Shown here: positions 13,568 to 53,127 of the stretch, one piece after another | Layout: every line of letters starts with the position of its first letter | Numbering within the stretch: position 1 is the first letter of the stretch | Source of the DNA: Notolepis coatsorum | Lineage: Eukaryota > Chordata > Actinopteri > Aulopiformes > Paralepididae | DNA: 64,000 nucleotides | Direction: 5' to 3' | NCBI GenBank assembly: GCA_963971535.1 | Contig: OZ020593.1 | Location: 14,003,057 to 14,067,056 of the forward strand | The notes under the pieces: generated by a model | Database searches by the model: none | What the model was told of the DNA's origin: nothing | The model's input: the letters and a program-made list of their open reading frames with translations, nothing else | Program-made: the position numbers and the translations under genes

Positions 13568-16150
13568 TCATTGAGACCCAGAATTCTTGCTGTAGATATT
13601 TCTTGATATATCACATCGAGATATGTAAGAAACCACACTTTTCGGCACATTTTTTCCGGTTGAAACCAACGTGATGCGATCAGTTTTTTTAGCTACTGTG
13701 ATACCCGATAAAACCAATCTCTTTAGTTGTGGATTCACTGCAAACTCAAAAACATCATTCAATAGTAATACCGAGGGGTGTACAGGTATATTCCAAGATA
13801 CGAGTAATGATAATTGTTGGGACACGTCTTTCCAGAATGCCTTAACTGGTGGGCAGTCCCAATACATGTGCATAAATGTTCCTTCGTCCCCATTTGTACA
13901 TTGGGAGCATTTGGAGTCTTGTTTAAGCCCCATTTTGCACAGCCTTATAGGAGTCAAGTATGTCCTGTGAATATAGTTCAGATTGATTTGTTGATGATCC
14001 GGGTTCCTTGATGTAAGTCGGACATTTGCCCAGGCTCCTTGCCAATCAAAGTCATTTTCCAGGTCTGGTATATCCCTCCTCCAGACAGTGTCTAGTTGAA
14101 GGGTTTCATACGAGGACGTTAGTAATTGATAATAAAAACCTGATAAAAAACCTCCCAATGTTTCTCTTTCATAGAAAAATTTGTGGTATCTGTGGTGTTC
14201 AATTGGTATGAGTAATGGAACACCGTGAGACCTCAGACAAAGTCGTAACTGTATGTAAAAAAGCCATGTGGACTCGGTGAGGTTAAACTTTGTGCATATT
14301 TCGACATAACTACAGAGGCCCTGGTTATTAAAAATATCCCCTAATGAGTGTATGCCTTGCTCTTCCCATATAGGGAATCTTATAGGGCGTTTTCCCATTA
14401 AGAGTGCATTGTTATTGAATATGGGAGTGTGATTATGCCATTCTTGAGGGTTAGGATATTTCTTTTGTGTTTCCCGCCATGTTCTGATTGCATGGGTAAT
14501 TATTGGGCCAAATTCTCGCTCACAATGCTTGATTGAAAGTTTAGTGTGTGCTATGTCTTTCAGTCTCTGTGGGGCTACTATGTTTTCTTCTAATTCTCTC
14601 CAAGATACCAAAGCCTGGGGGTCAAACCATATCTTCAGTGGTCTTAATGTGAAGGCCTTAAAATATTGTAAAAAATCTGGAACTGCCATGCCACCGTCTG
14701 CTTTATTTCTCTGTGCAGTGGATCTTTTTATGCGAGGTGGTTTGTTATTCCAAATAAATTTGTATGTGGAGGTTTGTAATCTTCTCCAGTAGCCCTCTGG
14801 AGGAGGTAACGGAAGCATTGAGCTGAAGAAATTGATTCTTGGTAATACATCCATCTTAACTATTGATACCCTTGCCTGTACTGAGTTTTTAAGTTTTGCC
14901 CACCTGTCCAGGTCGTCTTTGATTTTGTTCTGTATTTTTGTGTAATTGTGCTTCACCGTTTGTCTTATGGTGGGAAATATTTCCACACCCAAGCATCTAA
15001 AATGTTTGACCATGGGTATCGCACCTGGGAGGGTTGTGTCTTTTTTTGCACTGATGTTAAGAGGAAGAAAAGCCGACTTAGGCCAATTTATTTTAAATCC
15101 CGATAAATCACCAAAGTTCTCTATCAACTTGAGTATATGCGGCAATGTGTTGTTGGGGTTTTGCATGAACAATATTACGTCGTCCGCATATAAACTAATT
15201 TTATGTTGTGTGCCCTTGATTACTATTGGTTCTATGTGTTGGGATTGTCTTATAAATTGTGCTAAAGGTTCTAATGATAGATCGAATAGTCCGGGACTAA
15301 GAGGGCAACCCTGTCTGGCTGAGCGTGATACCGGAAAGATATCGGAGATGAATGTGCCTGTTGTAATCCTGGCCGATGGGTCCTTGTATAGTACTTTAAT
15401 CATATCAATGAATCCTTTTCCTAACCCCATCCTTTCTAATACTGCCCATAGAAACGACCATTCCAACCTGTCAAATGCTTTCATAGCATCCAGGGATAGC
15501 ATCGCCTTAGGTGTGGTGTCCTCTTTGTCTGCGTCTAGTACGTGCAGTATTCGCCTTATGTTATCATTGATCAGGCGACCTTTTATGAAGCCTGTTTGGT
15601 CCGGATGAACTAAAGACGTCATATGCTTTTGCAATCTGATGGCTAATATCTTAGAGTACAGTTTGACATCGGTTCCGAGGAGGCTTAAAGGTCGGTAACT
15701 ACCGCACTCAGTGGGGTCTTTGTCTTTTTTGTGAAGAACTGAAATGAGTGCGATATTTTGGTGTTTATGGAAGCTTCCCTCTTTGACTGAGTATAAGATC
15801 ATATTTAGTAATAAGGGTCCAAATATGTCCCAGCAAGAAATGTACATTTCTGATGGGATACCGTCAATTCCCGGAGCCTTGCCGTTTTTCATTCCGGATA
15901 TGGCCTTCTTGAGTTCTTCTAATGTGATCGGTGCTTCTAACTGTTTAGCGTCGTCCTCCGAAAGTTTAGGGAGAGTAATTTGATTAAGATATGTGTCTAA
16001 TTTGTCTTGATCAAAGGTCGTCTCTGAATTATACAAATCGGAGTAGAATTCTTTGAATGTATCGTTTATTATTTTGGGTTCTGTTACTAGAGCTTGTTGT
16101 TTCCTAATGGCAGTTATATCTGCAAATTTTGCATTAATTCTTAGTCGCAT
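13568..16150 (-). pseudogene. L1-Tx1 LINE reverse transcriptase ORF
   Basis: 860 codons. Motifs in order: GKAPGIDGIPSEMY (about residue 90), YRPLSLL (152), QTGFIKGR (185), LDAMKAFDRLEW (220), RQGCPLSPGLFDLSLEPLA (280) and the catalytic YADD (321-324). A carboxy region follows with CSQC and HMYWDCPPVKAFW (about 735-755), the Cys/His-type element of L1/Tx1 proteins. After AGITVAKK-like VLSGITVAKK the frame shifts near 13680, and the native ending (a LTYLDVIYQEIS-like segment) lies in another frame. The protein is therefore broken at both ends, although the RT active site is intact. Confidence 0.8.
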
Positions 16151-16152
16151 GG

Positions 16153-16899
16153 CTAATAGGTGACTAGGTTTAGATCCTTGGAAGTACTGCTGTTGTCTTG
16201 TGCTGCGTATTTTTGCAATTCCGATTTTTGTCTGTATATTGCTTTGATCTCTGTCTTTAGAATGTTAACTTGGTTTTCTAGTCTAGTAGAGTTGTTGTAT
16301 TTTAAAGAATTAAAAAGCGTTGAGTAAAGCGTTTCCATTTCAGACAGTTTTGTGTATTGATTTTTGCGCAATATGGAGGAAAATCTATCCGTGAAATCCT
16401 TGATCATACTCTTTACCGACATCCATAATATTCTGGGATCTTGCACCGAGTTTGCGTTATCCCGTAGGAATACTGTGAGAGCTTCTTTAATTTGTGTAAT
16501 GAATTCCTTGTTGTTAAGCAGCATAGAATTAAAACGCCATCTTGGGGCCCGGGAAGATAGTGTACCAAATGTTGCTTTCAGGATTAAGTAGCAGTGATCT
16601 GATAGCGCATTGGGTGTCATTTCCACTTCATATTTATCAAATATTCTCGGGGATGCAAAGACGTAATCAATTCTGGATAGTGTGTTGTGTCTCGCCGAAC
16701 GACAGGAGTACTTGCGGGTCATGGGATTAAGTGAACGCCATAAATCAATTACCCCTGTTGATTTTGACCAATCTTTTAATGCTTTAGATGCATTTTTTTG
16801 TTCGCTGGAAAAGGTAAGGTAAGTTTTGTCCATCCTTGGGTTCCAAATGGCATTAAAATCCGCACCTATTATATATGAGTACTCGGGATGGTTTAACAT
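16153..16899 (-). pseudogene. L1-Tx1 LINE endonuclease fragment
   Basis: 248 codons with YIIGADFNAIWNP (about residue 9), RIDYVFAS (about 76) and ALSDHCYLILKATF (about 97). These are the catalytic N, D and SDH elements of an APE-type endonuclease, followed by the linker to RT. The start of the domain is missing. The frame runs off into a stop at 16153, while the homologous continuation GSKPSHLLAMRLR is in a shifted frame. One small indel near 16195-16206 therefore separates it from the RT ORF. Confidence 0.75.
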
Positions 16900-17762: not shown

Positions 17763-18107
17763 TAGGGATGTCCGATATTATCGGCCTACCGATATTATCG
17801 GCCGATATCGGCATTAAAATGTGATATCGGAAAATATCGGTATCGGTTTTCAAAAAAAATAAACATTTACATTTCTATAACCTTTATTTACCCAGGCAAG
17901 CAAGTAAGAACAAATTATGGTTTTATTTATTGTCAAAAGTATGCATAATGTTGTGTTAATTCCACAACAAGAGATATGTAATGTTTATTACCTGAAATTA
18001 TTCCATTTTTTGGGGGGGAAACCCTGCATATATCGGTATCGGTAATTAAGAGTTGGACAATATCGGTATATCGGTATCGGTAAAAAAGCCAATATCGAGC
18101 ATCCCTA
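17763..18107. mobile_element. hAT-like MITE with 8-bp TSD
   Basis: The termini TAGGGATGTCCGATATT and AATATCGAGCATCCCTA are inverted, and the interior is rich in TATCGG repeats. It is flanked by the 8-bp duplication AATAGAAT at 17755-17762 and 18108-18115. An 8-bp TSD with TAGGG-type termini is characteristic of hAT elements. No ORF. Confidence 0.85.
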
Positions 18108-18480
18108 AATAGAATAGAATTATAAAACAAAATAGGCCAGGGCTGTACAATTGTGCACGATGTAGTCGAGTATATACACCGATTAGAATAAAAATAACAA
18201 TACAGTGGGATGGGATAATTAGCAGGGCTGTGCAATTGAGCTACTGTGCAAAAAGTATGAACAGTTTTGAGTGTGTGTATAAATATCTAGTCCAGAAAGG
18301 GTGTGTTGATGTCATGATCTTCCTGTAGCTGCTGCTGTCAGTCGTCCTTGTCATTTCTTTTCATTTCTTTTCACTGCATCTTTGCTTCAAATCCCTCGAA
18401 GACGACTTCAAATCCACATAGAAACACCTTTTTTTTTTGTGATAATTTTTTTGCCTTTTCATTTTTCCTTTTTACATGAA

Positions 18481-18618
18481 AACAAAACACAACACAATAC
18501 AGTGTGACACAATACACAAGACATCACAGGACAGTACTTCAACAATAATAATTACAATAACGACAAGACAATTAGAAATAATACAAATAATAAATACAGA
18601 ATATAAAAATCTAATTAT
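18481..18618. repeat. About 140-bp direct repeat, copy 1
   Basis: Starts AACAAAACACAACACAATAC and ends AATCTAATTAT. Repeated at 19028-19167 with a few substitutions and one small indel. Part of the LINE 3' UTR. Confidence 0.85.
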
Positions 18619-19027
18619 TAGGGCTGTCAAAGTTAATGCTTTAATTTTGGAGATTAATTCAAATTATTTAAAGCATTAAAATAAATTAATCTAGATTAAT
18701 CTATGGAGTGAAAAATGTTAAATTTTAGCGCCGCGGATATAAGAAATAGGTCTAGCTGAGTCAATGTTGAATGTTTTGTTGAACATTTGTATTTCACAGG
18801 AGAGAAACTGTATTCAATGAAAGCTATTAAAATAGTCTTTGAATCTAAATATACTTTCTTTGTGTTGATTTTACATTAATTCCATGATTTTACTCAAGTA
18901 AATATATGTTACAACAAGCTTCGGTCTTAAGTAGAAAAATGCTATTTTTAATCTAGATGAATCTAGATTAATTACAGAAAATGGTGAGATTAATTAGTAA
19001 AACATTTTTAATCTATTGACAGCACTA
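18619..19027. mobile_element. hAT-like MITE (TAGGGCTGTCAAA family)
   Basis: Termini TAGGGCTGTCAA and TTGACAGCACTA are inverted; the interior is rich in AATCTAGATTAAT. The same family recurs at 32136-32931. Unlike the others it has no 8-bp TSD; instead it sits exactly between two 140-bp direct repeats. Confidence 0.75.
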
Positions 19028-19167
19028 AACAAAACACAACGCAATACAGTGTGACACAATACACAAGACATCACAGGACAGTACTTAATTACAATAATAA
19101 TTACAATAACGACAAGACAATTAGAAATAATACAAATAATAAATACAGAATATAAAAATCGAATTAT
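19028..19167. repeat. About 140-bp direct repeat, copy 2
   Basis: Second copy of 18481-18618. The LINE 3' UTR continues on its far side. Confidence 0.85.
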
Positions 19168-19419
19168 ATTATCACAGACACCCCTCAAAAGACATTCCCT
19201 CCCCCACTCCCACCCCTCCACCCCAGGACCCCTCAGGACCAACATCCCGACCCCGCTTCGCCGCTAGATCATTACCGTCTCGGCCGCTGAGGCCCACAGT
19301 TCGATGTTGGATTGCCCAACTCCAATCACCCGAGCGAGCGGTGGAGATCTCCATGTAAATGACATCCAAAAGTGTCAAAGACCAATTGGCCGTTGTGAGT
19401 TTCTCAGGTTGTTTCCACC

Positions 19420-19782
19420 TATAGGGTTGGGCACCGAAAACCGGTTCTAATAGGAACCGGTTCCTAACTTCTGGTTCTGGAACCGGAAGTAACATATTTG
19501 CATTTCGGAAAAACATTTTTAAAATTACTTTGTTAATTAATACCCTAGTTACAGTACAGCAACCAAATGAAACTGTATCAAGTCAACTGAAAATGTGAAT
19601 AGTATGAATTTTTTATATTTTTTTCCAAAAAAATATAAAATTCTCCTGCGAAATAAGCTGTGACCTGTTTTGACCTCCTGCACCTCAAAGAATCGGAAGC
19701 GAGAATCGTTTAGAACAGGAATCGATATGGAGAATCGGAATCGGAACCGGAATCGTTCAAATCCAAACGATGCCCAACCCTA
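19420..19782. mobile_element. hAT-like MITE with 8-bp TSD
   Basis: Termini TAGGGTTGGGCACCG and GATGCCCAACCCTA are inverted, with AACCGGTTC-rich subterminal repeats. Flanked by TTTCCACC at 19412-19419 and 19783-19790. It splits the L1-Tx1 fragment between its MRWK and QPEKLTTANW segments, so it is younger than that LINE. Confidence 0.85.
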
Positions 19783-19935
19783 TTTCCACCTCATGGCTAT
19801 CAGTTTCTTGGCTGCTGTAACGCCCGCCAGAATGATTCTTCGTTGCTGTATGGAGGCCGGCAGTAGTGATATATCATTTAGAAGCAGTGTTGCTGCTGCA
19901 AGTGGAGTTGTCAGGTTACATTATGTTTTAAAAGT

Positions 19936-20528
19936 TTAGTTGTCCAAAAGCGAGCCACCGGTGGACATTCCCAAAACATGTGCGGCGGCGTCGCTGCTGT
20001 CGCGCGGCGGGTCGGTGATGCTGAGCACCAGGGTGCCGTTCGTCTTCCTCGCCCCCCGCCCGCCGAAGAGGCGAATAGGGGGGAAGGATTTCAACGCGGC
20101 ACCCTCCGCCGCCGCCGCCGCCTCCGCCTCCGACGGCGGCTCGGGCGAGGAGGGCCCCCCCCCCCCCCGGGACGCGGCCTCCGGCCCCCACACCACCACC
20201 CTGCTCCACCGGCGGCGTCGCTCGGCCGGGAGGCGGCGCTCGGCCGCCGCCGCCGCACTGCCGCCGGGGGGGAAGGAGGGGGCTTCGGCGCCGTCGGGGA
20301 GGGGTGCGACGCCGACTCTCGCGCCGCCGCCCCTCCTCCGGTTCCCTACGCCGGACAGGCAGCGCGCCAGTGCCCTCTGACCCCAGATCAGCAGGGTGAC
20401 CAGGTCCCTCTTGAAGCAGGTGTTGAGGGCGACGTACACCAGAGGGTTGCACACAGAGTTGCTGAAGCCCAGGATCTGGACGGCGCTGATGAGCAGGAAC
20501 TCGGAGTTCAGGTCGAGTTCCAGTTGCC
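19936..20528 (-). CDS. qrfpr: Receptor terminal exon: TM7 and C-terminal tail
   Basis: The acceptor is TCTCCCAG before GGCAACTGG (phase joins exon 5). The exon encodes a short ECL3, TM7 with SAVQILGFSNSVCNPLVYVA (NPxxY as NPLVY), a helix-8-like FKRDLVTLL, then a long tail of about 145 residues. The tail is very GC-rich, with poly-Ala and poly-Gly runs, clusters of Arg and a late segment RKTNGTLVLSITDPPRD. The final 14 codons (HVLGMSTGGSLLDN) and the TAA stop at 19936-19938 are read out of frame from L1-Tx1 LINE sequence that starts at about 19982, so the native C-terminus has been replaced. The seven-helix core is untouched, so a functional receptor is still possible. Confidence 0.85.
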
Positions 20529-29512: not shown

Positions 29513-29610
29513 CATAATCTAGGAGCAGTGACACCAGATGGAAAGGCGCCCAGCAGGCGGCAAACAGCAGCACCACAGTGACCATCATTCTCACCGCTCG
29601 CCTCTTCCTC
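29513..29610 (-). CDS. qrfpr: Receptor exon 5: TM6
   Basis: 98 bp between an acceptor (TTTTGTCCTATAG) and a donor (GATTATG then GTGCGT). It encodes the basic end of ICL3, RKRRAVRMMVTVVLLFAACW, then APFHLVSLLLDY. The CWAPFH motif of TM6 is intact. Phases fit exon 4 (two bases plus G) and exon 6 (G plus GG). The exon is isolated by a 20.1-kb upstream and a 9.0-kb downstream intron. Confidence 0.9.
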
Positions 29611-49752: not shown

Positions 49753-49985
49753 CTGGTGATCTTGCTGATCTCGGATCCCGGCAGCGTCTGCAGCATGACA
49801 TCATGGACACGGCGCCTCCCCCACAGCTCCCGCACCACCTTCCCGTACAGGACGCCCATGGTCACCATGGGGACTAGGAAGACCAGCACCGACAGGCAGG
49901 CGGTGTAGGCCCGCCTCTGCTGCGCCCCGGGCCACACCTCCTGACAGCAGGTGTGGACGACGTCGTAGAGGAAGTCGTACTTCAC
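49753..49985 (-). CDS. qrfpr: Receptor exon 4: ECL2, TM5 and ICL3
   Basis: 233 bp; acceptor TCGCCTCCAG then GTGAAGTAC, donor ATCACCAG then GTCAGA. It encodes VKYDFLYDVVHTCCQEVW (ECL2, with the Cys expected to bridge to TM3), TM5 YTACLSVLVFLVPMVTMGVL, then YGKVVRELWGRRRVHDVML and SEISKITR (ICL3). The length and layout match the known exon of QRFPR-type receptors from memory. The acceptor follows an in-frame codon boundary and the donor leaves two bases for exon 5. A run of C bases lies 190 bp downstream in the intron. Confidence 0.9.
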
Positions 49986-51579: not shown

Positions 51580-51641
51580 CTGCACTTTCTGGACAAACCA
51601 CATAGGAGCTGCTATCGCCACGGCAACCAGCCATACAGTCA
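51580..51641 (-). CDS. qrfpr: Receptor exon 3: TM4 (62 bp)
   Basis: A short exon found by splice logic: acceptor GTCTTCTATAG then TGACTGTATGG, donor AAAGTGCAG then GTAAAC. It encodes (V)TVWLVAVAIAAPMWFVQKVQ, a TM4 helix with the conserved Trp and a Pro near the outer end. 62 bp equals two bases completing the codon from exon 2 plus 20 codons, and it meets exon 4 on a codon boundary. Similar TM4 sequence (VVWLVAV...PMWHVQ) is known in QRFPR. Confidence 0.88.
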
Positions 51642-52968: not shown

Positions 52969-53127
52969 CCAGCATCTTGCAGGCGTGGCAGAGGAAGTAG
53001 CCGTTCCGTACGTGGAGGGGATAGAGGATGCCCTGGAATCGCTCCACGGCGATGCAGGTCATGGTTAGGATGCTGGTTGCAATGGCAGTCACCTGGAGGA
53101 AAGGCACCAGCTTGCACAGGAAATCCC
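52969..53127 (-). CDS. qrfpr: Receptor exon 2: TM3 and ICL2
   Basis: 159 bp; acceptor CTTTCAG then GGGATTTCC, donor ATGCTGG then GTAAGG. It encodes (G)DFLCKLVPFLQVTAIATSI, TMTCIAVERFQGILYPLHVR and NGYFLCHACKML. The Cys at the top of TM3 and the ERF version of the DRY motif (QRFPR has ERH) are present. It begins with two bases and ends with one base of split codons, both matching the neighbours. The preceding exon (N-terminus, TM1, TM2) was not found. Confidence 0.88.

Follow-up and report, generated by a model that had tools for sequence, protein, structure and literature searches.

A receptor gene of the QRFPR type in the genome of Notolepis coatsorum (3.42 Gb) takes its final codons and its stop codon from a LINE, of a family that we take to belong to the L1-Tx1 clade, and apart from this end the gene is intact. 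The LINE lies in the sense orientation relative to the receptor gene in the window, by which we mean the whole stretch of 64,000 nucleotides that was analyzed (G000:C27:14003057-14067056). Our preferred explanation, to which we assign a probability of roughly 0.78, is that target-primed reverse transcription placed a sense, 5'-truncated L1-Tx1-type LINE in the final coding exon of an otherwise intact QRFPR-type gene. Such an insertion would have brought a TAA in the receptor frame, and a later 9-base deletion trimmed three codons. An mRNA reading across the break would then encode a receptor ending in 15 residues from a frame other than that of the LINE itself, and the receptor 3'UTR would begin in LINE sequence. 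With the insertion site at or close to the native coding end, the outcome would be a short swap of residues and stop, probably of little effect on a seven-helix receptor. The coordinates of the features are given in Table 1.

Table 1. Features of the receptor gene and of the LINE at its end (positions within the window unless a contig is given).
Feature	Position	Strand	Evidence
Receptor exon 1	L082, C27:14069840-14070307, 2.8 kb past the window end		Found by bait search; splice join
Receptor exon 2 (ECL1-TM3-ICL2, ...CIAVERFQGILYP...)	52969..53127	-	tblastn with human QRFPR bait; GT-AG and phase
Receptor exon 3 (TM4)	51580..51641	-	tblastn with bait; GT-AG and phase
Receptor exon 4 (ECL2-TM5-ICL3)	49753..49985	-	tblastn with bait; GT-AG and phase
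Receptor exon 5 (TM6, CWAPFH)	29513..29610	-	GT-AG and phase
Receptor last exon (TM7 with NPLVY, GC-rich tail, then the codons and stop from the LINE)	19936..20528	-	ORF; GT-AG and phase
Host part of cytoplasmic tail	19984..20400	-	GC by codon position, 417 bases
LINE-derived codons AHVLGMSTGGSLLDN and TAA stop	19936..19983	-	Genome matches, 27-copy alignment
5'-truncated L1-Tx1-type LINE (remnant of the ORF2 C-terminus, 3'UTR and A-rich terminus), interrupted by two later inserts	18429..19983	-	Genome matches, ORF2 alignment
Nested 362-bp element with inverted ends (hAT-like)	19421..19782	.	8-base repeat TTTCCACC on either side; edges and repeat read by eye
Single-copy DNA behind LINE: probable remainder of native exon or 3'UTR	18308..18428	-	Genome search; frame reading

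Structure and Identity of the Receptor Gene

The last exon of the receptor gene begins at 20528, where it is preceded by a CCCAG acceptor, and the remaining exons were located by tblastn with a human QRFPR bait. The six exons, all on the minus strand, can be joined conceptually into a stop-free product of 492 residues; every join is GT-AG, the phases match and a single frame is kept throughout. This product matches the 7tm_1 model in full (profile positions 1-260 of 260, E 3.3e-54) and its closest relative among solved receptors is QRFPR (E 5.3e-99), the next family being NPFFR2 (E 1.1e-38). The arrangement of six exons and five introns is the pattern of the QRFPR (GPR103) family. In the portion available to us of a study of that family (PMC4208404), its genes are described as having five introns and repeated loss of members is reported; the window gene is alike in its introns and in encoding the same seven-helix receptor, whereas no LINE-derived end is mentioned in that portion.

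A second QRFPR-type locus is situated on contig C24 and is closer to the human bait than is the window gene: it matches at 56 % over residues 4-118, compared with 38 % over residues 7-156 for exon 1 of the window gene, a match that overruns the exon. A gene resembling NPY4R also lies on contig C24 (E 2.3e-53 against NPY4R and 1.9e-52 against NPY1R), and the neighbor of QRFPR3 in gar is given as NPY4R in the same portion of the family study (PMC4208404). As the C24 locus shares its contig with the NPY4R-like gene, another subtype would be left for the window gene, which may, by elimination, be QRFPR4. No NPY8R was identified among the receptor-like genes of C24 and C27 that were translated, of which only L062 was searched for relatives. 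The C24 gene was considered as a guide to how the window gene natively ended and rejected, as the tail encoded by its last exon (L012) is hydrophilic and unrelated.

The LINE-derived end could also be read as one sign of lost constraint in a receptor gene that is decaying, a possibility that gains from the piling up of the LINE and its nested elements at the gene end and from the C24 locus, which is closer to the human bait and could cover the function. We consider decay unlikely, however, given that the six exons are intact, the splice sites correct and the 7tm_1 domain full.

The Break Between Receptor and LINE

A genome search with positions 19800-20100 as the query listed 40 matches (40 of 795 candidates scored), one of which was the window itself. 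Within 19800-19983 the 39 other matches have 82-92 % identity to the window (E 8.2e-47 to 2.8e-64, for the 40 of 795 candidates scored), and the LINE similarity exceeds chance. The membership of the LINE in a dispersed family rests on this kind of sequence similarity. Among these 39 listed matches, 34 reach base 19983 (base 184 of the query) and none passes it; the other five end at query bases 143-144 (four matches) and 181 (one). The alignment likewise starts at 19983 in 7/7 loci retrieved with long flanks.

These seven loci and 20 more copies were aligned. LINE sequence is present in 22 of the 27 fetched copies (counted by eye) in the 60 bases upstream, a stretch that in the window is receptor tail; it runs GGGGTTGGTGGC...TGGCACTTATAT before GCACATG, with internal losses in some copies. 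L003 has just about 12 bases in common upstream of the break, and in four copies (L045-L048) the match begins some 40 bases past it. The break is located at 19983/19984 and the sequence upstream of it is not LINE; because other copies continue upstream as LINE and the window does not, base 19983 marks the point of 5' truncation in the window copy. Chance identity with the receptor side could extend over the first one or two bases of GCA (19983-19981).

Reading Frame of the Tail up to the Break

The minus-strand receptor ORF is open from TM7 through the GC-rich tail into the LINE. An open frame alone is weak evidence here, because shuffling the bases of the tail also gave a stop-free frame in 1027 of 5000 trials; the tail itself is open in two of the three sense frames and one of the three antisense frames. 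The composition of its codons is more distinctive. In the host part of the tail the three codon positions have a GC content of 0.73/0.71/0.91, and in the 51 codons that end at the break 0.67/0.65/0.92; neither third-position excess was reached in any of 5000 shuffles, while the third-position excess of the 135 bases after TM7 was matched by 64 of 5000. With its third-position GC of 0.92, the receptor frame bears the mark of coding sequence as far as the break.

A run of 14 G (minus strand) is situated at 20155-20168 inside the low-complexity tail, and an assembly error there could shift the frame. Were the native stop to lie upstream of the LINE, concealed by an indel error in this run or by an unseen splice, the LINE would be 3'UTR alone. 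We regard this as unlikely even though the run does sit within the tail and more than one frame of the tail is open, for the GC excess is in the same frame after TM7 as after the run. Because the signal keeps one frame on either side (the 135 bases and the 51 codons above), a frame error at the run is disfavored, and a crude pattern scan of the tail for splice sites printed none that was donor-like.

The LINE-Derived End and Stop

Element sequence occupies the receptor reading frame through to the stop codon at 19938-19936, which follows directly on HVLGMSTGGSLLDN. The initial annotation had described an end of 14 codons and a stop derived from the LINE; the end and the stop stand, but with the break at 19983/19984 the count is probably 15 codons (A plus HVLGMSTGGSLLDN, read from GCA CAT GTT ... 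GAC AAC TAA). In the same frame the majority row of the LINE family reads ...TTG GAA ATC TAT AAC AAC TAA (...SLLEIYNN-TAA), and because this row has TAA in the receptor frame, the stop was most likely brought by the insertion itself. L005, L033 and L045 read TAT at the stop position, and L003, L008, L039 and L042 have indels of their own ahead of it.

Just before the stop, the window copy has a private in-frame deletion of nine bases, by which three codons are gone and the frame is kept; this gap is seen in no other aligned row, that of L048 being different and larger. The end has one C-to-T change (P to S) relative to the family majority, which is common to L002 and L008. Overall, the window copy differs from the majority row at 7 of 198 compared columns, five of the differences being transitions. 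For the 27 other rows, the difference from the majority is 1.7-10.6 % in 25 and 16-17 % in L046 and L047, which are unaligned at the start.

In the LINE's own frame the same DNA reads HMFWECPPVARFW at 19982-19944 and, after a shift of frame, PLAAATLLLND...RRIILAGVTAAKK at 19905-19804. Both pieces align with an 898-aa ORF bearing RVT_1 at 13568-16264 (joint tblastn E 3.4e-07), and the remnant is homologous to the C-terminal Cys/His region of this ORF2, whose zf-RVT match is weak here (21.2 bits, under the Pfam cut-off of 27.5). These alignments bear out the earlier reading of a LINE Cys/His element in another frame with LINE homology continuing downstream, in fact to about 18429, and the two further copies of the motif that had been noted in the window are present at 13870 (minus strand, HMYWDCPPVKAFW) and 46837 (plus strand, HMMWECPGVLAFW).

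We rejected the idea that the receptor has gained a LINE protein motif, since the 15 codons lie outside the LINE's own frame and the Cys/His element is in another frame than the tail. It is also highly improbable, in our view, that the new tail is translated and has been kept by selection, with the 9-base deletion as a trace of tuning and with altered trafficking or desensitization of the receptor in this lineage; the changes within the 15 codons, namely the one substitution common to two other copies and the one in-frame deletion, give too small a basis for a test of selection.

Target Site and Native End

The initial annotation held that a truncated LINE had replaced the native C-terminus. 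That a 5'-truncated LINE gives the final codons and stop is upheld by the results above; the word "replaced" exceeds the evidence. In the genome search, positions 18308-18432 behind the LINE had a single candidate and a single match, the query itself. When this flank is read as a continuation of the receptor, its three frames run into a stop after 6, 22 and 19 codons, and their third-position GC is 0.33, 0.55 and 0.47, respectively, so that its codon GC is unlike the signature of the receptor tail. Because the flank stops within 6-22 codons and is without that signature, the LINE was probably inserted at the native coding end or close to it, with some native residues and the stop displaced or deleted. 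If nothing was deleted, the flank permits just 6-22 more codons, and the native loss may be small. A genome search for a LINE-free duplicate of the last exon gave only its own locus, the next best match having an E of 0.07.

A search for a target-site duplication at the window copy gave none, the best repeat being five bases long, a length reached by 187 of 300 shuffles. Duplications of 9-18 bases (0-8 of 300 shuffles) are present at five of 12 other copies (L020, L025, L026, L047, and L053); the seven without one include L027 (nine bases, 20/300 shuffles, not counted) and L003, which was scored with its end placed too far. Because these 7/12 insertions are also without a duplication, its lack at the window copy is not decisive, although it does require us to assume that the target suffered a deletion or was rearranged later. 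For the repeated GACAGCAGC (minus strand, 18331-18339 and 19993-20001), a target-site duplication was rejected as the likeliest reading because the repeat is found 89 bases behind the A-rich end and nine before the 5' break, in CAG/GCC-rich DNA. An assembly chimera at 19983, in keeping with the missing duplication, is scarcely credible given that the LINE continues to its A-rich end with nested inserts, one having its own 8-base repeat, and that single-copy DNA adjoins its far end.

Comparison With Other Transposon-Derived Protein Ends

Protein ends derived from transposons are already known, and the receptor gene is, at the level of its DNA, a clear further example. As described in the available portions of the respective papers, exonization of an intronic Alu-like element as SMN exon 6B creates a new C-terminal end (PMC4969610), and an intronic Alu insertion gives rise to a short isoform of the general transcription factor TAF8 (PMC12871804). 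As in SMN, a mobile element supplies the new C-terminal end of the receptor, but the LINE is directly in the last coding exon, whereas the SMN element was exonized from an intron. As in TAF8, a transposon would supply a new protein form, although that isoform comes from an intronic site while the receptor is known from DNA alone. Among the titles and abstract openings listed for transposon-derived C-termini and exonization, L1-Tx1 in teleosts, QRFPR in teleosts, QRFPR4, and retrotransposon insertions in GPCR tails, none reports this case. The gene provides a clean and base-exact case of a LINE ending the coding sequence of an otherwise intact neuropeptide-receptor gene and, if the end is translated, a recent change in a GPCR tail could be dated and tested. 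A LINE-ended receptor opens no new kind of mechanism.

Insertions Within the LINE and Downstream Sequence

The LINE finishes in its A-rich 3' end near 18429, a position consistent with L004, L006, and L008 and with the edges of the genome matches. Past the 362-bp nested element, which appears hAT-like from the length of its flanking repeat, the alignment resumes at 19420-19415 in six of the seven long-flank loci and, in L008, not before the 3'UTR. A 408-bp element with inverted ends (TAGGGCTGTCAA.../...TTGACAGCACTAA) is also present inside the LINE, at 18619-19026. It is flanked exactly by a duplicated 141-bp piece of the LINE 3'UTR (96 %; 18480-19167), a length well beyond that of a normal target duplication. 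Both window copies of this piece match one single stretch in L002, L003, L004, and L008. Some 120 bases beyond the LINE, a further dispersed repeat overlaps 18150-18312. The receptor gene has possible poly(A) signals on the minus strand at 17989, 17931, 17888, 17741, and 17415.
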